Source: a virus
Direction: 5' to 3' (one strand)
IMG/VR virus record: IMGVR_UViG_3300020178_000002
Location: 1-64,000 of that record
Length of the DNA: 64,000 bases
Shown here: in pieces, positions 2,798-21,185 of the stretch
Position numbering within the stretch: position 1 is the stretch's first letter
Layout of the letters: every line of letters begins with the position of its first letter
Notes under the pieces: model-generated
What the model was told of the DNA's origin: nothing
The model's database searches: none
Seen by the model: only the letters and a program-made list of their open reading frames with translations
Translations under genes and position numbers: made by a program

Positions 2798-3355
2798 ATG
2801 AGAATCAAGAATCTTTTACTTGCCCTTACTTTTACCTTTATGGCAACTCCAGCTTTTGCAAAGGAAACTTGTAAAGCTACCAAATACACAAAAGTCATTG
2901 ATACTGTAAGATTTGGTATGACTATTCCTCAAGCAAAGAAAGCACTTAAAAAGAAGTATGGCTCTAAGGCAACTATTATTAACCCTAAAGAGGGCTTTCT
3001 AGTTGTTGACTTTACTCGCCCTCAGAAGAATATAGAACGAGCAATTTATCTTGCACAGAATGGAAAGATCACTCGTCAACTATTCCGATACTCAGAAAGC
3101 TTTCAAAGAAAGTTTGGTGGTCCTGCTCAGATGTTTGTAGCTATGGTTAAAAAGCTGCAAGAGAAATATGGCCAGCATGATGATCAAAATATGATTGAAT
3201 CTGAAGACAAAGCCATTTTCTTTTGGGCAAACAATGGTGGAGCTACTATGCAAGTCTCTGCTAGTAATGATGGGGTTGACCTAAGAATTGATTGTGAAGC
3301 ACTTGAGAAAGAAATCCAAGAGGAAGCTTCAAAATCTGCTAACTTTGGTTTTTAA
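2798..3355 (+). CDS. Secreted hypothetical protein with Sec signal peptide
   Basis: A 185-residue product with a classical signal peptide: MRIKN, hydrophobic LLLALTFTFMATP, and cleavage after AFA (residue 21). The mature domain begins KETCKATKYTKVIDTVRFGM and includes 'TIPQAKKALKKKYG', a pattern seen in periplasmic proteins with a 'GMTxxeakkaL' repeat. Two cysteines, near the mature N-terminus (CKAT) and near the C-terminus (RIDCEAL), could form a disulfide in the periplasm. A role at the cell envelope during infection (superinfection exclusion or lysis control) is inference only. Confidence 0.65.
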   Translation: MRIKNLLLALTFTFMATPAFAKETCKATKYTKVIDTVRFGMTIPQAKKALKKKYGSKATIINPKEGFLVVDFTRPQKNIERAIYLAQNGKITRQLFRYSESFQRKFGGPAQMFVAMVKKLQEKYGQHDDQNMIESEDKAIFFWANNGGATMQVSASNDGVDLRIDCEALEKEIQEEASKSANFGF

Positions 3356-3356
3356 G

Positions 3357-3405
3357 TAGCTTTCTGTTAAGTTTTCTCTTAGAGTTGCAGAAAAGGAGAG
3401 AGCTA
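3357..3405 (+). promoter_or_regulatory. Nested leader hairpin covering the ribosome site of the 3405 gene
   Basis: TAGCTTTCT (3357-3365) pairs over nine positions, one G-U, with AGAGAGCTA (3397-3405), which ends at the A of the start codon. Nested inside, TTTTCT (3372-3377) pairs perfectly with AGAAAA (3389-3394). The ribosome site AAAAGGAG is therefore held between or within two stems. Confidence 0.5.
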
Positions 3406-3593
3406 TGTGGCACTTAGAAAAAATAGTCGAGATGAACCAGCCAAAAGACGAACCACCTAAGGAAAAAGAAATCCAGCTAGAGACTGAAGATCTCCTTCTT
3501 ATTAAAGAAGAGCTTAGGAAGTCTAAGGAGCTTTTGTTAGAGTTGAGAGAGCTGGTAAAGGGTACTCGAGAGATACTAAAAAATAATAGCTGA
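3405..3593 (+). CDS. Small coiled-coil protein
   Basis: A 62-residue, highly charged protein. From about residue 22 (EIQLETEDLLLIKEELRKSK) the heptad spacing of leucines and isoleucines predicts one continuous coiled coil. An AAAAGGAGAGAG ribosome site precedes the ATG. The small size and coiled coil suggest an oligomeric accessory protein. No family recognised. Confidence 0.55.
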   Translation: MWHLEKIVEMNQPKDEPPKEKEIQLETEDLLLIKEELRKSKELLLELRELVKGTREILKNNS

Positions 3594-3600
3594 AAATCCA

Positions 3601-3664
3601 CCCCCCCCACTCCTTATTTGATAAGAAAACCATTAATAAGGTTTTTTTAAAAAAAATAAGGAGT
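3601..3664 (+). promoter_or_regulatory. C-tract/TTGATAAG leader hairpin before the 3672 gene
   Basis: An eight-C run (3601-3608) abuts ACTCCTTATTT (3609-3619), a perfect 11-bp inverted match to AAATAAGGAGT (3654-3664), which carries the AAGGAG ribosome site. TTGATAAG (3618-3625) overlaps the end of the 5' arm. A second small stem AACC/GGTT lies in the loop. There is no U-tract after the 3' arm, so it is not a terminator. Confidence 0.6.
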
Positions 3665-3671
3665 AGGATAT

Positions 3672-4214
3672 ATGGGTATCAAAACCAAGATCAAGTCTAT
3701 TGACTATAAAGGCAAGTCTAAGAGTCTCTTAAAGAGCGTAGTCTTTAATTATTACACATGGCTCACAGCTATCTGGTTTTTAACTGATACAGGACTAAAA
3801 GAAGACCCACGCTTCACCTTTCCCACACTAGCTTTAACATCCCTAATTCTGGGTCTAGGGCTTTCTAAGGTGGAGTTTGGCTCTAAGCTAAAAACTCTCT
3901 ATAAGAAGAGAGCAGAGCCTAAAAAGGCGAGAGCTTATGGGCGAACTGTGTGGAATGGCTGGTTGATTGCTTTATCTAGCTTGCTAGTCTCTGGCAATCT
4001 TGTAAGAGAGACTTTAGATCTGCATTTCTTCAAGGGTCAGCCCTCTGCATTTGTATCAATGTTATTGATCGCATTTCTAGGCTTCTCTCTCTACAATGTC
4101 ATAGAGAGTAAATACAAGAAGTCACATAGAATCTTCTGGTTAGCCCCAACAATTGCAGCAGGGATTCTATTAAACCATCTGTTATCAGAGATTAACTTTC
4201 AGATCTTTCCCTAA
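3672..4214 (+). CDS. Multi-pass membrane protein
   Basis: A 180-residue protein with four to five hydrophobic segments, around residues 25-42, 50-66, 96-112, 125-143 and 153-172, separated by basic loops (KKRAEPKKARAYGR). There is no cleavable signal. It is likely an inner-membrane protein of unknown function. It is followed at once by a strong terminator, so the gene is the end of a transcription unit. The ribosome site is locked in the leader hairpin described above. Confidence 0.65.
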   Translation: MGIKTKIKSIDYKGKSKSLLKSVVFNYYTWLTAIWFLTDTGLKEDPRFTFPTLALTSLILGLGLSKVEFGSKLKTLYKKRAEPKKARAYGRTVWNGWLIALSSLLVSGNLVRETLDLHFFKGQPSAFVSMLLIAFLGFSLYNVIESKYKKSHRIFWLAPTIAAGILLNHLLSEINFQIFP

Positions 4215-4220
4215 TTAAGA

Positions 4221-4268
4221 AAAGGACACTGTATTGCACATTATCTGCATACAGTGTCCTTTTTTTTG
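4221..4268 (+). terminator. Strong rho-independent terminator
   Basis: A perfect 14-bp stem, AAAGGACACTGTAT (4221-4234) with ATACAGTGTCCTTT (4249-4262), closes a 14-base loop and is followed by a T-run. The A-rich 5' side could also serve the opposite strand. Confidence 0.85.
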
Positions 4269-4318
4269 TCTTGTGTTTGGTACTCTGAGAGTATCTATTT
4301 TTATAAGGAGTTTTTGTT

Positions 4319-4762
4319 TTGAGCAAAAAGCAAAAAAGAGCAATGAAGAAGAAGTCTGCAATTCGAAAAAGAAGAAAGCAGAGGAAACTCAATAAGAAGT
4401 ATGAAAGCCTAAAAGAGAAAGAGAAGTCATTAGACTTTCTTGTTCAAATGATGGATGTCTTTAAAGGTATGGGTTTAGATCCAGAAGCTCTTTCTTCACT
4501 TGGTGGAGATGAGATGCCACCAGAGAGTTTAGGCGAGGGCGAGGAAGAAGACTTGTCTCCTGAAGAAATGGAGCAGTTTACAAATCTTCTTTCTGCTTTA
4601 ATGGGTGGAGATCTGCCAGAGGGTTTATTTGATAACCTAGACCCAGAAAGTCTTTTTTCTGACGAATCTCCAACAGGGGGATCTGTAGCAGAGACAGATG
4701 AGGCAGATCCTGTATCTGAAGAAGAGTCTTCAACAGATGAAGAGCCTAATTCAGAAGACTAG
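4319..4762 (+). CDS. Hypothetical protein with basic head and acidic tail
   Basis: A 147-residue product from a TTG start; AAGGAG at 4305-4310 lies 8 bases upstream and no in-frame ATG is better placed. The first 35 residues are extremely basic (KKQKRAMKKKSAIRKRRKQR). The remainder is acidic and rich in Gly/Glu/Ser, with two similar 'L(D)PE(A/S)L' segments and a tail of EEESSTDEEPNSED. Such charge separation is seen in scaffold, nucleic-acid-binding or DNA-mimic proteins; I cannot assign it. Its end overlaps the convergent thymidine kinase gene by four bases. Confidence 0.55.
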   Translation: MSKKQKRAMKKKSAIRKRRKQRKLNKKYESLKEKEKSLDFLVQMMDVFKGMGLDPEALSSLGGDEMPPESLGEGEEEDLSPEEMEQFTNLLSALMGGDLPEGLFDNLDPESLFSDESPTGGSVAETDEADPVSEEESSTDEEPNSED

Positions 4763-15374: not shown

Positions 15375-15714
15375 ATCCTCTAACAATGACTTTTAAATGA
15401 GCCACACCTCTTTTAGAGCCATTTTGGATAACAAGGTCATCAACTTTCGTAGAGATCACTTCAAAGTCAGTGAGGTTTCTGGCTTTTAGTTTTGCTTGGA
15501 CTTGTTCAATCACCTCATCACCACAAATATGGACATTACTGCTGTTCTCCAAATCTTTGAGGTTGATATTAAAGGGTACAGAAAGTCGGAGAACCATATT
15601 GAACCCATCTACTTCGTAATTTGAATCTAAGAAGTCTGGGTCTTGAATTAGAGATGTCAGTCTCTTTAAGTTATTTCGGGGGGTGCTCATAAGTTTTTTG
15701 ATATATCTGATCAT
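15373..15714 (-). CDS. Hypothetical protein
   Basis: A 113-residue product starting MIRYIKKLMSTPRNNLKRLT, with a basic N-terminal helix then an alternating beta/alpha region (VDGFNMVLRLSVPFNINLKD, FEVISTKVDDLVIQNGSKRG). AAAGGAG precedes the ATG, and CATATAAA further upstream is a plausible -10. I do not recognise it. Confidence 0.55.
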   Translation of the reverse strand: MIRYIKKLMSTPRNNLKRLTSLIQDPDFLDSNYEVDGFNMVLRLSVPFNINLKDLENSSNVHICGDEVIEQVQAKLKARNLTDFEVISTKVDDLVIQNGSKRGVAHLKVIVRG

Positions 15715-15919
15715 TTTAATCTCCTTTTAATTTTTAAAGTATTTTCCCTTTTTATATGATCAGAAACCTAACTTCATAACTTATTCTTACCTCTCGCTAG
15801 TCTTTTATACAGGATATAGAGCAGATCACATAGAAAGAGATCATTGCATACAGGCCAGGAGTTATCTAATAAGCTGTTTATAATCAGCCCTCTTTTGACA
15901 AAGACACAAGGAGGGTAAA
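15715..15919. promoter_or_regulatory. 205-bp divergent control region with ribosome-site hairpin
   Basis: No convincing ORF lies here. Reading minus, TGATCATATAAAAAG offers a -10-like core for the 15714 gene. Reading plus, TTTATAATC (15878-15886) is a good -10 for the intein-bearing gene. CCCTCTTT (15888-15895) pairs over eight positions, one G-U, with AAGGAGGG (15908-15915), its ribosome site. Confidence 0.55.
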
Positions 15920-16420
15920 ATGGCTGTAGCTTTTAAAAGAAACCAAATACTAGGCAGGGGAGACTTAGATATCTTCCTCACTAATTCAAATGGCAATGTC
16001 TCAAATGCTGCCGAGATTACTTATGCCCTTTACTTTGTAGAGCCTGGACCACCAGAAGCAGATGTTCTTATCGGTGATCCACAGCGTATTCCAGAGAACC
16101 CATCTGTTGGGGAATACTATGCTTCTGTTAGGATTCCTACAACAGCTACTTATGGTAGATACAGGATAAGGTGGACTCTTAAAGAGTTTGTTAATAGTAA
16201 CTCACAGACAGTAGTACAAGAGTTTGGTGTTGTTGCAGAAAATGCTGTTTTGGGTCTTCAGCTTACAGAAGCTCAGAAGTCTATGGTCTATAAGTTGCGT
16301 ATGCTTTTAAGAGATCAGTGTCTTGCTGGAGAAGAACTCGTCACTGTTGATGCTGACGGTGAAAAGATCACACTCCCTATCGAAGAACTATATGACATCA
16401 TAGGAGATGGAAATGCTTGA
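15920..16420 (+). CDS. Virion-like protein, N-extein plus N-terminal half of a split intein
   Basis: The first 133 residues are the N-terminal part of a virion-like protein: a beta domain (ITYALYFVEPGPPEADVL, VGEYYASVRIPTTATYGRYR) then the helical start VYKLRMLLRDQ. At residue 134 (codon 16319-16321) the sequence changes to CLAGEELVTVDADGEKITLP, an intein block A with catalytic Cys1, and the frame stops 33 residues later. The continuation is in the 17279 gene. The predicted spliced product joins RDQ to CPDKYYHFRPP. The very short N-intein (33 residues) is the atypical split type. A nuclease gene overlaps its stop. Confidence 0.8.
   Translation: MAVAFKRNQILGRGDLDIFLTNSNGNVSNAAEITYALYFVEPGPPEADVLIGDPQRIPENPSVGEYYASVRIPTTATYGRYRIRWTLKEFVNSNSQTVVQEFGVVAENAVLGLQLTEAQKSMVYKLRMLLRDQCLAGEELVTVDADGEKITLPIEELYDIIGDGNA
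16319..16417 (+). other. Split intein 1, N-terminal part (IntN, 33 residues)
   Basis: Begins with Cys1 (CLAGEEL) and carries only block A. It is homologous to the first 33 residues of the contiguous intein 2 (both contain GEKxxLxIEELxxII). The histidine-containing block B, and blocks F and G, are in the 17279 ORF. Confidence 0.8.
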
Positions 16421-17282
16421 AGAACTGCTAGTTAAGTTTGACCTCACAATAGAGCAACTGAACAAAAAAGGTCGAGTAGCTAAAGAGATTGTAGAAAAGC
16501 GTTCTGCTCTTGTTTCACATCTCCATAAGCAAGGGTTCTCTTGGAAAGAGATGACCGAAATCACAGGTCTTTCCAACGGGTCTATTCAGAGGCTGACCAA
16601 AGCGAAAGGCTGTAAAGCTGTTCAAGACAAACGCAAGAAGTTAGGTGCTAACGCTGGTCGATCCACCAAAGGTATGGATAGGTCTGAGCAACTAAAAAAA
16701 CAATGGGCTAAAGGAGACTTTGATTTCCATCGGGGGAGAGTTCGACCACAACATGAGCGTGATAAACTTAAAAAGGCTTGGGAAGATCCCAAACTTAGAT
16801 TGTTAGCCTCCGAGAACGCTAAGAAGTATGTGTGGGGAAATTCAGATGTGAAACAGAAGCTCATGGACTTTCACCACGATCCCGAAGAAAGAGCAAGGAG
16901 ATCGAACGCTCAAGCGATTAGGATGAAAGAGAACCCGACACCTTACCTTAGAGGCAAAACCTCAATAGAGGCTACACCTAAAGGTACTAAAGATGAGGTT
17001 CGTGTTCGCTCAAGCTATGAAGCAAAGACAATCTCCATCTTAGAGTCCGACCCTAATGTCAAAAGCTATACCTATGAGCCAATATACAAAGTTGCTGGAA
17101 GAACAATACTCCCCGACTTTGTTGTCCACTATCAAGATGGATCTACTACTCTTGTTGAAGTTAAACCACAATGGGCTTTAAACCGAGAAGATGTTATCGC
17201 CAGGTTAGCCCTATCTCAAAAAGTTGCTGATGATAATGGTTGGTCTTACCAAACATGGACTGAAAAGGAGTTGGGACTATGA
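16413..17282 (+). CDS. PD-(D/E)xK homing-type nuclease inserted in the split intein
   Basis: I take ATG at 16413 (289 residues), six bases after AGGAG; the ATG at 16407 touches the ribosome site. An N-terminal helix-turn-helix-like segment (GFSWKEMTEITGLSNGSIQR) is followed by basic NUMOD-like helices (RGRVRPQHERDKLKKAWEDP) and a C-terminal nuclease domain with E in YEAKTISILES, D in ILPDFVVHY and ExK in LVEVKPQ, the layout of TnsA-like PD-(D/E)xK enzymes. It overlaps IntN by eight bases and IntC by four (ATGA), so the three ORFs are translationally coupled. Likely role: homing of the intein locus. Confidence 0.75.
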   Translation: MLEELLVKFDLTIEQLNKKGRVAKEIVEKRSALVSHLHKQGFSWKEMTEITGLSNGSIQRLTKAKGCKAVQDKRKKLGANAGRSTKGMDRSEQLKKQWAKGDFDFHRGRVRPQHERDKLKKAWEDPKLRLLASENAKKYVWGNSDVKQKLMDFHHDPEERARRSNAQAIRMKENPTPYLRGKTSIEATPKGTKDEVRVRSSYEAKTISILESDPNVKSYTYEPIYKVAGRTILPDFVVHYQDGSTTLVEVKPQWALNREDVIARLALSQKVADDNGWSYQTWTEKELGL

Positions 17283-17665
17283 CATCTCAAGAACAAGCAC
17301 AGAAGATTAAAGACGCTTTCAAAAAAAGGAAGCTATCAATCAAATCTATGGACACTCAAGGTGATTTCTCTTGGAAGCAAATCTCTAAAGCTCATAAGAA
17401 CCCGACACCTATTGAACCCATTTATAAAATCACCACAGAGCAAGGTAAACATCTCACTATCACAGGTGGACACCGAGTCTATATGTCTCCTAACCTTTGT
17501 GTTCCAGCAGAGGAGCTGTCCGTAGGACTTAGCTTACAGACATCACAAGGAGCAACTAAGATTTCCAATATCGAGGTCATCGAAAACAGACCCTTTATGT
17601 TCGACCTTACTGTTGAGGAGAACCATAACCTTGTACTCGAAGGTTCTGATGTGGTCGTTCATAAC
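17279..17665 (+). other. Split intein 1, C-terminal part (IntC, 129 residues)
   Basis: Runs from the ATG of the 17279 ORF to the terminal HN before Cys130. Block B is HLTITGGHRVYM (T and H of TxxH), block F is FMFDLTVEENHNLVLEG and block G is VVVHN followed by C. All residues needed for trans-splicing with IntN are visible. Confidence 0.8.
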
Positions 17666-18670
17666 TGCCCAGACAAGTATTACCATTTTAGGCCACCAGA
17701 GCATGAGGCTAACATCGGTTCTTATAATCAAGTCTTTGGTCAAGTTTGGGAAGATGAAGAGTTTCTTGAGTACCTTGAGCGAGCACTCGACTGGTGGAAC
17801 ATGCAACCGCCAGAGACAGAGGATCTTCACACATTAGATCAGCTTGTTGCTCAGAAGCCTGCATGGAGAACACCTATTTTACAGGGTGCTATTCAGTTTG
17901 CAGCAATGGCATTACAGGCAAATTGGATTGTAGATGAATTCTCGGTTAGAGGAGATACTGACTTGGAGGTTTTACTTCCTAGTGGAGAAAAGGTCAAGCT
18001 CACTATTGAGGAGCTACATGAGATTATAAAAGAGGAGCGTATGATGGATAATTTGACCAAACAAGCAATCAAACAGGCTTTCTTACAAGGAGAGCTTAAG
18101 GTTCTTTCCGTTGATAATGAAACCAGCCAAGTAGGCTACCAAGTGATTTCTGATGTGATGAAGCACCATACTCCACATAAAAAGATACTAAAAGTAGAAC
18201 TCGATAATGGGCAGTTCGTTATTGCTACTCAAGACCATTCCCTCTTCACCATTGAAGAGGGCAAGATCAAATCCATTGAAACAGAAAACTTTTCTGTTGG
18301 AGACACCCTCGCTATCGTTGAGGGTGGTGAAGTTAAAGGGTGTATTATCACTAACATCTCTCAAGAGGAAGACTGTGAATACACTTATGATCTTTGTGTG
18401 CCTATAAACGAGAACTTCGTACTTGCTAATGGCATACTAGCACACAACTCATACTCTATTGGAGGTATTTCTCTCGACATAGACAGGTCTAGTAAGTACG
18501 AGGGTTTGAAATCCTCAGCAGAGCAGATGTGGTCTACTTCTGTAGAAGCCAAGGCTAGAACAACAAAGTTCATAAGGGGTTTGAGGCAACCGAAATATGG
18601 TGTGGGAATAAGATCGAGTTTTGGGCCTGCGGTGGGTCGTGGTGTATTGAGTCCGAGAAACTTTATTTGA
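17279..18670 (+). CDS. IntC, central extein, second intein and C-extein of the virion-like protein
   Basis: A 463-residue ORF read as four parts: IntC (1-129); extein (130-221, CPDKYYHFRPPEHEANIGSY ... NWIVDEF); a contiguous 169-residue intein (222-390) starting Ser1 SVRGDTDLEVLLPSGE and ending ILAHN before Ser; and C-extein (391-463, SYSIGGISLDIDRSSKY ... RGLRQPKYGVG). After both splicing events the mature protein would be about 298 residues (133+92+73). The extein segments interrupted (YHFRPP, SIGGISLDI) look conserved, as is usual for intein sites. The mature function is unknown; a structural role is inferred from style. The ATG overlaps the nuclease stop. Confidence 0.8.
   Translation: MTSQEQAQKIKDAFKKRKLSIKSMDTQGDFSWKQISKAHKNPTPIEPIYKITTEQGKHLTITGGHRVYMSPNLCVPAEELSVGLSLQTSQGATKISNIEVIENRPFMFDLTVEENHNLVLEGSDVVVHNCPDKYYHFRPPEHEANIGSYNQVFGQVWEDEEFLEYLERALDWWNMQPPETEDLHTLDQLVAQKPAWRTPILQGAIQFAAMALQANWIVDEFSVRGDTDLEVLLPSGEKVKLTIEELHEIIKEERMMDNLTKQAIKQAFLQGELKVLSVDNETSQVGYQVISDVMKHHTPHKKILKVELDNGQFVIATQDHSLFTIEEGKIKSIETENFSVGDTLAIVEGGEVKGCIITNISQEEDCEYTYDLCVPINENFVLANGILAHNSYSIGGISLDIDRSSKYEGLKSSAEQMWSTSVEAKARTTKFIRGLRQPKYGVGIRSSFGPAVGRGVLSPRNFI
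17942..18448 (+). other. Intein 2, contiguous mini-intein (169 residues)
   Basis: Block A SVRGDTDLEV with Ser1; block B QFVIATQDHSLFT (TxxH); block F EYTYDLCVPINENFVLANG; block G ILAHN then Ser+1. It has no endonuclease domain. Within it, GAGGAG (18032-18037) and ATG ATG (18041) mark the point that corresponds to the split in intein 1. Confidence 0.85.
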
Positions 18671-18775
18671 ACCCTATGTAGGCAGAGGAGTATTGAGGTA
18701 AGCAACGAAAGTATGGTGTTGGTATCTGTACTTTGAGTGAGTACTTTGAACCCTATGTGGGCAGAGGGGTGAGAA
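18581..18775 (+). repeat. Two decayed copies of the C-extein 3' end
   Basis: Copy 1 (from 18581) encodes LRQPKYGVGI and, in another frame, EPYVGRGVLR. Copy 2 (from 18693) encodes, in yet another frame, RKYGVGICTLSEYFEPYVGRG then VRKKS and a stop. GAACCCTATGT followed by GGGCAGAGG-like sequence occurs in both, at about 18669 and 18750. This looks like an imperfect duplication left by recombination near a homing nuclease. The ancestral C-terminus may have been the copy 2 version. Confidence 0.55.
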
Positions 18776-18805
18776 AAAAATCTTGACCACTTGCTTGCTT
18801 TTCAT

Positions 18806-18844
18806 ATAAGTTAATCTCAACTCAAGAATAAAGGATTAACTTAT
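18806..18844 (+). promoter_or_regulatory. Leader hairpin reaching the start codon of the 18843 gene
   Basis: ATAAGTTAATC (18806-18816) pairs perfectly over 11 bp with GATTAACTTAT (18834-18844), which includes the first two bases of the start codon and abuts the AAAGG ribosome site. CATATAAG (18803-18810), a -10-like sequence also seen before uvsE, overlaps the 5' arm. Confidence 0.6.
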
Positions 18845-20117
18845 GGCTACTTGCCCTCACTGTAAAAGAGATTTCAAAACAGCAATAATTAGTGGTAGAC
18901 ACCGCAAGGTGTGTTGGCCAGATTGGAAGCCCCAACCAATTACACCATGTATCTGTGGACATGAATCCACATCAAACACACAGATGAAAAGACATAAGAA
19001 AGAATGCGAGGTATGGCAAGGTCGAGATAAGAAAGCGATCTCAAAGTTCAGACGCAAACAAACGATGAAGAATCGTTATGGGGTTGAGAATCCAGCCCAT
19101 AGCAAAGAGTCTGTAGAGAAGCGTAAACAGACTAACCTCAAGCGTTATGGTGCAGAGAACCCTTTCTCAAAGGAGAGTAGCCTTTTTGAAAAGGTGCAAG
19201 ATGCTCTTGATGGTAAGCGACCAGTCTTAAAGGGTAAGGATAACCCTTTTGCTTGGGAGAGCGTACAGGATAAGATCAAGCAGACGAACCTTGAGAGATA
19301 TGGTGTGGTCAACCCTCAACAGAATGATGTGGTCAAGGCTAAGACAGAGGCTACTAATCTTGAGAGGTATGGTGGAACGCTATTGGGATCACCAGAGCTT
19401 AGGGCTAAGATTGAGGCAACGAATATAGAGCGTTATGGTGTGCCTATCCCTAGCATGAGTAAAGAAGTCATGGATAGGGTTGTAGCGACTAATATGGAGC
19501 GATATGGTGTACCTTATACGAGTGCAGTGGGGGAGTTTAGACAGAAGCAACTCAAGACGATGATTGAGAACTATGGAAGCCACTACTTTGCGTCTGAGCA
19601 AGGCAAGGGGGAGATTAGGGCTACGATGGTGGATCGTTATGGTGTTGAGTTTCCTGGTGCTATTGATGGTCATTGGGATAAGGTGCAAGAGACATTGAAA
19701 GATAGGTATGGTGTGGAGTTCCCTATCTTGCTTATGAATCAGAAAGAGATGAACAAGTTTGAGTCAAGGGTAGCCTCATATAGCGACTCGCTCACCTTTA
19801 CAGGTAATGGTGCATATTGGAGATTTCTTCCAAGCAAGAAGAACTTTGATGGCTCGATTGGTGGCTACAAGAATCCAGACTTTGTAGTTTGTGTGAGTGA
19901 TGATCCCGAACATCCTTACATGGGTGCCACAAAGGTAGTGGAGTGTTTTGGTCAGTATTGGCACTCACAAGCGTTAACAGGGATGAGTAAAGAGGAGCAT
20001 GAGCGTAATACGATAGAGGCTTATGCGGAGGTAGGGCTTGATTGCCTTGTGATTTGGGAGGGAGACATTCGTTCAGATGAGGGTTCAGTGATTGAGAAGG
20101 TGGAGAGGTTCTGCTAG
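18843..20117 (+). CDS. Vsr-like (EDxHD-type) homing endonuclease
   Basis: A 424-residue protein. The N-terminus has two zinc-finger-like clusters (CPHCKRDF...H...C and CICGHES...H...C). The middle is a series of about eight 20-25-residue units sharing TNLERYGVxNP, a DNA-reading repeat found in phage homing nucleases. The C-terminal domain is Vsr-like: FESRVASY, KNPDFVVCVSDDPEHPYMG, KVVECFGQYWHS, ERNTIEAYAEVGLDCLVIWE. Nucleases of this type accompany 'fractured' genes with split inteins, which fits its position next to the intein locus. It may be the nuclease of intein 2, or a free-standing one. Confidence 0.8.
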   Translation: MATCPHCKRDFKTAIISGRHRKVCWPDWKPQPITPCICGHESTSNTQMKRHKKECEVWQGRDKKAISKFRRKQTMKNRYGVENPAHSKESVEKRKQTNLKRYGAENPFSKESSLFEKVQDALDGKRPVLKGKDNPFAWESVQDKIKQTNLERYGVVNPQQNDVVKAKTEATNLERYGGTLLGSPELRAKIEATNIERYGVPIPSMSKEVMDRVVATNMERYGVPYTSAVGEFRQKQLKTMIENYGSHYFASEQGKGEIRATMVDRYGVEFPGAIDGHWDKVQETLKDRYGVEFPILLMNQKEMNKFESRVASYSDSLTFTGNGAYWRFLPSKKNFDGSIGGYKNPDFVVCVSDDPEHPYMGATKVVECFGQYWHSQALTGMSKEEHERNTIEAYAEVGLDCLVIWEGDIRSDEGSVIEKVERFC

Positions 20118-20121
20118 TCAG

Positions 20122-20199
20122 ATGCTTGATGAGCTTCAGAGAGAAATAGATTCTCTAAAGAGAGACCTAAATAAAAAACCCCCCCCAGAATCCTATTGA
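20122..20199 (+). CDS. Possible 25-residue leader peptide
   Basis: ATG at 20122, four bases after the upstream stop, opens MLDELQREIDSLKRDLNKKP and ends PPESY, with TGA being part of the TTGATAAG element. The peptide looks like a heptad coiled coil, and the C-run encodes its prolines. No ribosome site is obvious, so translation would need re-initiation. The ORF may be chance. Confidence 0.2.
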   Translation: MLDELQREIDSLKRDLNKKPPPESY

Positions 20200-20238
20200 T
20201 AAGAGGTGTATTACAATAACTATTATTAAAAGGATTTT
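20179..20238 (+). promoter_or_regulatory. C-tract/TTGATAAG leader hairpin before the 20241 gene
   Basis: An eight-C run (20179-20186) leads to AGAATCCT (20187-20194), complementary (one G-U) to AGGATTTT (20231-20238) holding the AAAAGGA ribosome site. TTGATAAG is at 20196-20203, and TATTG/CAATA forms a nested stem. Confidence 0.55.
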
Positions 20239-20240
20239 AT

Positions 20241-21185
20241 ATGAACATTTCTAAAAATCATTTATCTGAGGCATTCCCCCTTGAAGGTCAAAACCCATTA
20301 AAATGTGAGCCATTGGCTTTTAGAGGAACTGTTGAGGATATTGACTTTGAAGAAAGTGACTTTGAAGGTATTACTGCGTTAAACACTTATTATAAAGGTG
20401 TGCATTTTAAAGGTTGTACTTTCAATCTTACTTCTTTTTTCAAGTTTGTGGACTGCACTTTCACTGATGTTTCTTTTAAATACATCAGTGAAGAACGCTA
20501 TAAGAAAGATAATGAAGAAGATAGGAGAAGTCTCTTTATCAACTGCAAGTTTGTAAACACAACTTTTAAAAAAGTAAGTCTGGCTGGTGTAAGATTTGAT
20601 AATTGCAGTTTAGAGAACATCGCAATCATATCTTCATGTTTTGAAGCAGTTGATTTTGAGACTTCAACCTTAAAGAATGTGAAGTTTGTAAGCTGTTTTG
20701 TTAAGAACCTCTTGGTTTCAAGTGGAGAAAAAGTTTCTTTTGTTGCCTGTAAGACTACTGCAAACAAACATAAGCCAGCCACAATTGAGTTTCTAAATAC
20801 ACGAAGCAATTCTAAACAGAAGATTGTTAGCCCTAAGTTAGAGCTGCTGGATGCAACAGATAACCAAAGCCATGTCTTTGCAGGGAAGGGTGCATATAAC
20901 CAATATGTTGCTTTTCAGCAACATAGGACATATTCTTATTTTTATGCAACTACCTTAAAAAGATTATATGAGAAAGCCAGATTAGCCGCCCCACAGGGGT
21001 TACATCTTCACGAAAAACTAAAACTTCTTGATGAGAAAGACGCAAGGGAAAAGAAAGCCTTTCGGAAGAAGCTGAGAAAAAATATTCTTGGGCTTATCCT
21101 TATTGGACTTAGTTCCTATCTTCTATATTCAAATCAAGAAGCTGTTCTTCAGTCTATTGAATACCTTAAAAACCTTAGCTTCTAA
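20241..21185 (+). CDS. Pentapeptide-like beta-helix protein with C-terminal membrane helix
   Basis: A 314-residue protein. Residues about 30-165 contain diverged pentapeptide-type repeats with phenylalanine or cysteine at the inward positions (VHFKGCTFNLTSF, RFDNCSLENIAII, VKFVSCFVKN). Then comes a charged helical region, and a hydrophobic segment near residues 285-300 (ILGLILIGLSSYLLYS) that may anchor the C-terminus in the membrane. The AAAAGGA ribosome site is in a leader hairpin. A strong terminator follows. Confidence 0.6.
   Translation: MNISKNHLSEAFPLEGQNPLKCEPLAFRGTVEDIDFEESDFEGITALNTYYKGVHFKGCTFNLTSFFKFVDCTFTDVSFKYISEERYKKDNEEDRRSLFINCKFVNTTFKKVSLAGVRFDNCSLENIAIISSCFEAVDFETSTLKNVKFVSCFVKNLLVSSGEKVSFVACKTTANKHKPATIEFLNTRSNSKQKIVSPKLELLDATDNQSHVFAGKGAYNQYVAFQQHRTYSYFYATTLKRLYEKARLAAPQGLHLHEKLKLLDEKDAREKKAFRKKLRKNILGLILIGLSSYLLYSNQEAVLQSIEYLKNLSF

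Follow-up and report, generated by a model that had tools for sequence, protein, structure and literature searches.

How is one protein made from a phage gene that is broken into separate pieces, and how did such an arrangement arise? The question is raised by positions 15920 to 18670 of the window, a 64,000-nucleotide (nt) stretch of the viral record IMGVR_UViG_3300020178_000002, to which all coordinates refer unless a related locus (labels beginning with L) or the window's own genome (G000) is named. Here, a gene for a 298-amino-acid (aa) protein occupies the first and third of three overlapping open reading frames (ORFs) and is interrupted by two inteins, one (intein a) split around a nuclease gene and the other (intein b) contiguous. 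The explanation that we favor, and consider highly probable from comparisons with related alleles, is that intein a would splice in trans and be spread by a homing nuclease, while intein b would splice in cis after having been re-fused from a split form.

Organization of the interrupted gene

The following elements make up the locus.

15920..16318, plus strand: N-extein, residues 1 to 133 of the 298-aa protein (from gap-free alignment to intein-free homologs and an AlphaFold model of intein-free L005), comprising in that model a beta-sandwich domain and the beginning of a helical domain
16319..16417, plus strand: IntN of split intein a, 33 aa, with Cys1 and block A only; stop codon at 16418-16420
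16413..17282, plus strand: free-standing TnsA-like PD-(D/E)xK nuclease gene between the halves of intein a (PF08722, NF033179, Foldseek, and alignment)
17265..17270, plus strand: AAGGAG, a Shine-Dalgarno-like site within the nuclease gene serving the IntC-a ORF
17279..17665, plus strand: IntC of split intein a, 129 aa, with block B (TGGH), block F, and block G (VVHN), followed by Cys134
17666..17941, plus strand: middle extein, residues 134 to 225
17942..18448, plus strand: contiguous intein b, 169 aa, with Ser1, block B (TQDH), and block G (LAHN), followed by Ser226 (PF14890, E = 7e-23)
18033..18040, plus strand: candidate re-fusion scar AGGAGCGT within intein b (comparison with split alleles L030, L032, and L040)
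18449..18667, plus strand: C-extein, residues 226 to 298; stop codon at 18668-18670

The first ORF (15920-16420) encodes extein residues 1 to 133 followed by an IntN of exactly 33 codons, and the third (17279-18670) encodes, in order, IntC-a, extein residues 134 to 225, contiguous intein b, and residues 226 to 298. Joining 15920-16318, 17666-17941, and 18449-18670 yields 298 residues with the junctions RDQ joined to CPDKYYH and VDEF joined to SYSIGG. A sequence-only reading of this DNA had proposed the three overlapping ORFs, the unusually short IntN, both junctions, and the pairing of a split intein around a nuclease gene with a contiguous one, and all of these were recovered at its coordinates. 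Its implied nuclease start at 16407 had to be corrected: the start is most likely 16413, because a GGAG at 16403-16406 is well spaced for it and the homologous start is retained in L040. The IntN and nuclease ORFs overlap by 8 nt and the nuclease and IntC ORFs by 4 nt (ATGA, with the IntC start over the nuclease stop), and Shine-Dalgarno-like sequences precede the starts of the second and third ORFs. Through the overlapping start and stop codons, the three ORFs would be translationally coupled, and the protein would be made from two separately translated pieces: the 33-aa IntN would bind the 129-aa IntC and join residue 133 to Cys134 in trans, and intein b would join residue 225 to Ser226 in cis.

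That an assembly artifact or frameshift error broke a single intein-containing gene might be suspected of any metagenomic contig, yet the nuclease ORF is intact over 0.87 kb, start and stop codons overlap, L034/L035, L049, L065, L141, L155, and L158 share the layout, and a separate public contig (L039) is 100% identical across all 2,748 base pairs (bp). Since the layout recurs independently, such an error is vanishingly improbable and excluded for practical purposes. Joining by RNA splicing or through an intron was rejected as well, no Rfam family being found at E values up to 1 in 15500-20500.

Intein-free relatives and the splice junctions

A scan of viral contigs with the extein sequence returned 38 loci, and after a wider one 47 distinct uninterrupted proteins were known in all; a search of a genome collection gave as its only match a metagenome-assembled genome with one intein-free homolog. 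About two dozen of the 38 loci align across residues 1 to 298 with few or no gaps at 72 to 93% identity. The comparison of the spliced sequence with intein-free homologs that had been suggested as a check came out in favor of the prediction: the closest of them (L005, 93%; L006, 91%; L009, 90%) run gap-free through both junctions, and L005 is identical to the predicted spliced protein at 276 of 298 positions. This match across both junctions is far beyond chance, and we take the junctions to be right because the homologs align through them without gaps.

The residue directly after each site (+1) differs between the two kinds of allele. Among the 47 intein-free proteins it is Asn in 46 and Ala in 1 at site a, and Asp in 44 and Ser in 3 at site b; in interrupted alleles it is Cys or Ser at site a and Ser or Thr at site b. 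From this difference, the +1 nucleophile appears to arrive with the element and to persist after splicing as a footprint of one residue in the protein. Three intein-free loci, L113, L114, and L116, have Ser instead of Asp at site b, and L116 also has Ala at site a; these residues could mark sites that have lost an intein or that resist homing.

Conservation and relationship of the two inteins

Blocks A, B, F, and G, reported for both inteins in the sequence-only reading, are indeed seen in both, with the PF14890 match given above and two stretches each matching TIGR01445 and TIGR01443. An alignment of 24 sequences displays blocks A, B (TxxH), F, and G, nucleophiles at positions 1 and +1, and the terminal Asn. 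The residues required of class 1 inteins are present, namely, Cys1 with Cys or Ser at +1 in intein a and Ser1 with Ser or Thr at +1 in intein b; in the window the pairs are Cys1/Cys134 and Ser1/Ser226, in agreement with the nucleophiles first assigned. Intein a has the form of an atypical split intein, with an IntN of 33 aa (block A only) and an IntC of 129 aa in separate ORFs. The earlier description of the two inteins as sisters holds in the sense of clear homology: they align over nearly their full length (blastp E = 1e-16, 31% identity; profile-profile E = 1.5e-34) and share a conserved EELxxII helix immediately ahead of the split point. In a phylogenetic tree, the intein sequences fall into two well-separated groups by site (100/99).

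Both inteins are under purifying selection (dN/dS 0.06-0.11), with values of 0.09-0.11 for IntC-a and 0.056 for the IntC part of contiguous intein b compared with split L030. These values bear on the idea that the two parts of the protein act as separate polypeptides and that intein a no longer splices. Nuclease-split genes that function without splicing do exist, as in the phage NrdA case cited in PMC10448857, and splicing of intein a is itself a prediction. Against this stand a dN/dS of about 0.1 in IntC-a, the retention of all blocks, Cys1, and the terminal Asn in all nine known site-a alleles, and a +1 residue that is always Cys or Ser even though intein-free alleles have Asn or Ala. As selection on a dead intein would not preserve the blocks, Cys1, Asn, and the +1 residue, we regard loss of splicing as very improbable and intein a as probably alive.

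Alleles at the two sites

Scans with the extein, inteins, and nucleases, together with a six-frame survey of relatives, identified distinct interrupted alleles at both sites, 9 at a and 17 at b. Seven of the nine at site a are split with a TnsA-like nuclease (the window, L034/35, L049, L065 [= LR745208], L141, L155, and L158); L040 is split with a nuclease remnant only, and L037 is contiguous. The L040 remnant consists of 33 in-frame nuclease codons left by a 768-bp deletion between GAAAAG repeats, with the ATGA overlap kept. At site b, 14 of the 17 (two of them partial) are split with a Vsr/EDxHD-type nuclease, 2 are contiguous (the window and L136), and in 1, L160, the nuclease is fused to IntC. 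In that locus, a single 523-aa ORF (2995-4566) carries nuclease b in frame with IntC-b and the C-extein; such a fusion may be a stage between inteins that bear a nuclease and fractured ones. The two sites share the atypical split position, but the nucleases that split site b belong to a different family, and from these alleles we take both to be old homing sites.

Four loci (the window, L040, L155, and L158) have inteins at both sites. In L155 and L158 both fractures are intact, giving five ORFs, two nuclease genes, and three extein pieces, so that their protein would require two trans-splicing reactions joining three pieces.

Nucleases of two families

The window nuclease, previously assigned to the PD-(D/E)xK class from its sequence, proves to be TnsA-like by profile (PF08722, E = 2e-8, over the cut-off; NF033179, E = 8e-10) and by fold (Foldseek match to TnsA, 1t0f, E = 5e-5), with the D...ExK residues in place: D237, E251, and K253, together with E205 (all numbered from 16407), are invariant among six homologs. 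The site-b nuclease of the relatives is of the Vsr/EDxHD type, with profile matches to I-Bth0305I (3r3p, E = 5e-4), 3hrl (E = 7e-6), and vsr (TIGR00632, E = 3e-7). To our knowledge, TnsA-like nucleases are not among the families known to drive inteins; the window nuclease, if it is indeed an intein-homing enzyme, would add a family to these.

Scans for the split modules in other genes, made with IntC-a, IntC-b, a profile of the two inteins, and nuclease a, returned this gene and, beyond it, a single short nuclease-domain match in L146. Relatives of nuclease b with at least 38% identity over most of the protein all lie within this gene; there were also weaker, shorter matches. Among annotated phages, nuclease a occurs only in LR745208, and nuclease b is resembled by distant Vsr-like genes only.

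Probable homing of the modules

Compared with L034, the site-a module of the window (16320-17665) is 94 to 100% identical at the DNA level in most 50-bp bins, while the flanking extein is mostly at 70 to 84%; the bins outside that range are one at 92% and a diverged patch at 16770-16870 (52% and 86%). At synonymous positions the two differ by 0.75 in the extein and by 0.04-0.09 in the module, and L030 and L040 display a similar pattern of module and flank identity at site b. The module thus has a transmission history of its own, and near identity confined to it between diverged hosts is the expected footprint of homing. By this account, nuclease a would cut intein-free alleles at site a, and IntN, the nuclease, and IntC would be copied in together with the new +1 residue (Asn to Cys). 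Distances between nucleases follow those between inteins (r = 0.94 at site b and 0.90 at site a), and both also correlate with those of the extein (0.71-0.90).

The nuclease genes might instead be passive or decayed passengers spread by ordinary phage recombination. One observation in this direction also counts against homing as we propose it: the window and L034 nucleases are separated by 34.5 nonsynonymous and 7.5 synonymous changes, including a strongly diverged patch of about 60 bp near 16770-16840 (about 52% identical), with no purifying signal in that pair. This patch may be a swapped or fast-evolving part of a helical, possibly DNA-binding region. Most of nuclease a has, in addition, been lost in L040. 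On the other side, identity switches within tens of bases at the module ends, catalytic residues are conserved in the nucleases, two nuclease families occupy the same intein position, and nuclease b is under purifying selection (dN/dS 0.07-0.23; 0.12 for the L030/L040 pair). Spread as passengers is therefore quite improbable, and homing remains our preferred account.

Probable re-fusion of intein b

Split inteins are usually assumed to derive from contiguous ones. The contiguous intein b of the window suggests the reverse step. In split b alleles such as L030, IntN ends AAAAGAGGAGGGTGAGGAGTA ahead of the nuclease start and the nuclease ends CAAAGGAGCGT ahead of the IntC start; at the corresponding place the window reads AAAAGAGGAGCGTATGATGG, where an IntN tail and a nuclease tail meet at AGGAG. 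The left part of the scar AGGAGCGT corresponds to the IntN tail of split alleles and the right part to the tail of the nuclease-b gene, which in L030, L032, and L040 holds the Shine-Dalgarno-like sequence for IntC-b. Relative to L030, and in its coordinates, the window intein is 952 bp shorter. In the tree, window-b pairs with split L030 (96/86) inside a four-row clade (100/100) that is otherwise all split, and monophyly of the split b alleles is rejected (p-AU = 2e-4). Because the scar joins these two tails and window-b nests among split alleles, the contiguous intein b of the window is best read as a re-fused split intein: a simple deletion, with an AGGAG resembling a ribosome-binding site at either end, would have removed a Vsr/EDxHD-type nuclease gene and brought IntN and IntC back into one reading frame. 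L040 displays a related route at site a, where the deletion between GAAAAG repeats left the nuclease remnant described above.

An alternative polarity is that contiguous intein b is primitive, with nuclease genes inserted later and AGGAGCGT the original insertion target. It draws on the fact that only three scar bases (CGT) lie outside the shared AGGAG and on contiguous alleles at three separate positions of the tree. It is opposed by the state of all known b alleles but the window and L136: homologous nucleases split them, and these follow the intein in their distances (r = 0.94). The tree results just given also oppose it, and the same gene would need to have inserted repeatedly at one position, which makes this polarity unlikely.

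Further points weigh against re-fusion and the wider explanation. Beyond the few scar bases, the sequences behind the exact grouping of window-b with L030 are short, synonymous distances place L030 and L040 closest instead, and a clade of L030, L040, and L032 excluding window-b is only mildly rejected (p-AU = 0.026). For contiguous L037 at site a, re-fused against primitive gives a p-AU of 0.245, short of deciding polarity. Trans-splicing, cleavage of empty sites by each nuclease, and the deletion mechanism are also predictions.

With re-fusion as the preferred reading, the alleles would form a full cycle of empty, split with nuclease, split with remnant, and re-fused states, running in parallel at two sites with two nuclease families and including, in L155 and L158, three polypeptides joined by two non-cross-reacting trans-splicing reactions. 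We consider this broader picture fairly probable. The natural allele set lets the whole cycle of fracture and re-fusion be tested in one gene, and doubly split L155, L158, and L040 offer natural intein pairs that would have to function together with no cross-reaction, an arrangement that protein engineers construct by hand.

Relationship to known systems

Dassa et al. (2009) reportedly described "fractured genes" with split inteins and Vsr-like EDxHD homing endonucleases, and that nuclease family is said to have been named with the original fractured genes, though it may not define them. The present locus has a free-standing nuclease gene between intein halves and a host gene that is whole in relatives; its nuclease is TnsA-like rather than EDxHD, the latter type being found at site b of relatives. 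The likeness reportedly extends to the break inside an intein, the phage-like environmental origin, and a site-b nuclease resembling I-Bth0305I; the differences are two fracture sites in one gene, an atypical N-terminal split position at both, a second nuclease family, and decayed and re-fused states among the alleles. Fractured genes with split inteins and EDxHD homing endonucleases were already known (cited in PMC10448857 and PMC3229294).

Atypically split inteins such as AceL-TerL, VidaL, and PolB16 OarG (PMC10189870, PMC11923092) likewise combine a short IntN with a long IntC, and PolB16 shares Ser1 and Ser+1 with intein b. Their reported IntN is about 15 to 25 aa, compared to 30 to 57 aa here, and the present inteins differ further in the nuclease genes between the halves of both and in having fused relatives. 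The homing cycle of Burt and Koufopanou, described with mini-inteins in PMC8966425, similarly proceeds through invasion, fixation, nuclease decay, and a deletion leaving a nuclease-free intein. In that cycle a nuclease domain is lost from one continuous protein, whereas here a separate gene would be lost and a split intein become one polypeptide. Protein engineers aim at tandem trans-splicing of three segments, with two independent split inteins assembling a single protein (PMC12707363); L155 and L158 apparently achieve the natural equivalent, their two inteins being related yet diverged (one with Cys1, the other with Ser1). A literature search, mostly of non-subscription papers and hence weak evidence of absence, found no natural double fracture or re-fusion.

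Host protein and gene neighborhood

The AlphaFold model of the extein (intein-free L005, moderate confidence) has an N-terminal beta domain and C-terminal helices, and both inteins lie at the start of conserved stretches (134-159 and 222-236) modeled as low-confidence loops. Solved structures did not identify the extein (best Foldseek hit in the PDB 1e-3, TM about 0.2); the best viral matches are phage G gp165, also a distant homolog, and unnamed phage proteins. Another distant relative, in Tunturiibacter phage Tunturi_5, is annotated by its depositor as "head-tail connector"; by this analogy the essential-looking host protein likely has a virion role, and the label "virion-like" in the sequence-only reading is plausible, though only weakly so at 26% identity and with a fold model of this quality.

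Two further features lie downstream.

18666..18770, plus strand: two degenerate copies of the 3' end of the gene (26-nt repeat, 18666-18691 and 18745-18770)
18843..20117, plus strand: free-standing homing endonuclease gene, phrog_3339/DUF7487

The DUF7487 gene follows directly downstream, and many relatives, both intein-bearing and intein-free, have it next to the same gene; the interrupted gene thus seems, from its alleles and neighbors, to be a target of three kinds of homing nuclease. The repeats of the 3' end (KYGVGI...VGRGV) sit between the two genes, and the C terminus is shorter than in L005. The copies were probably left by the downstream homing gene, and together with the short C terminus they suggest a past replacement of the 3' end by that element.

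The source is a giant phage with at least four inteins. Beyond the two described above, contiguous large inteins lie in its terminase large subunit and ribonucleotide reductase genes (G000 254242-255444, minus strand, and 241568-241735, plus strand); by length and motifs they are probably ordinary LAGLIDADG-type inteins. A short ORF elsewhere in the genome (G000 196186-196497, minus strand) is 36% identical to extein residues 1 to 105, a stand-alone copy of the beta domain, and second copies similar to this domain also occur near L027 and L037.
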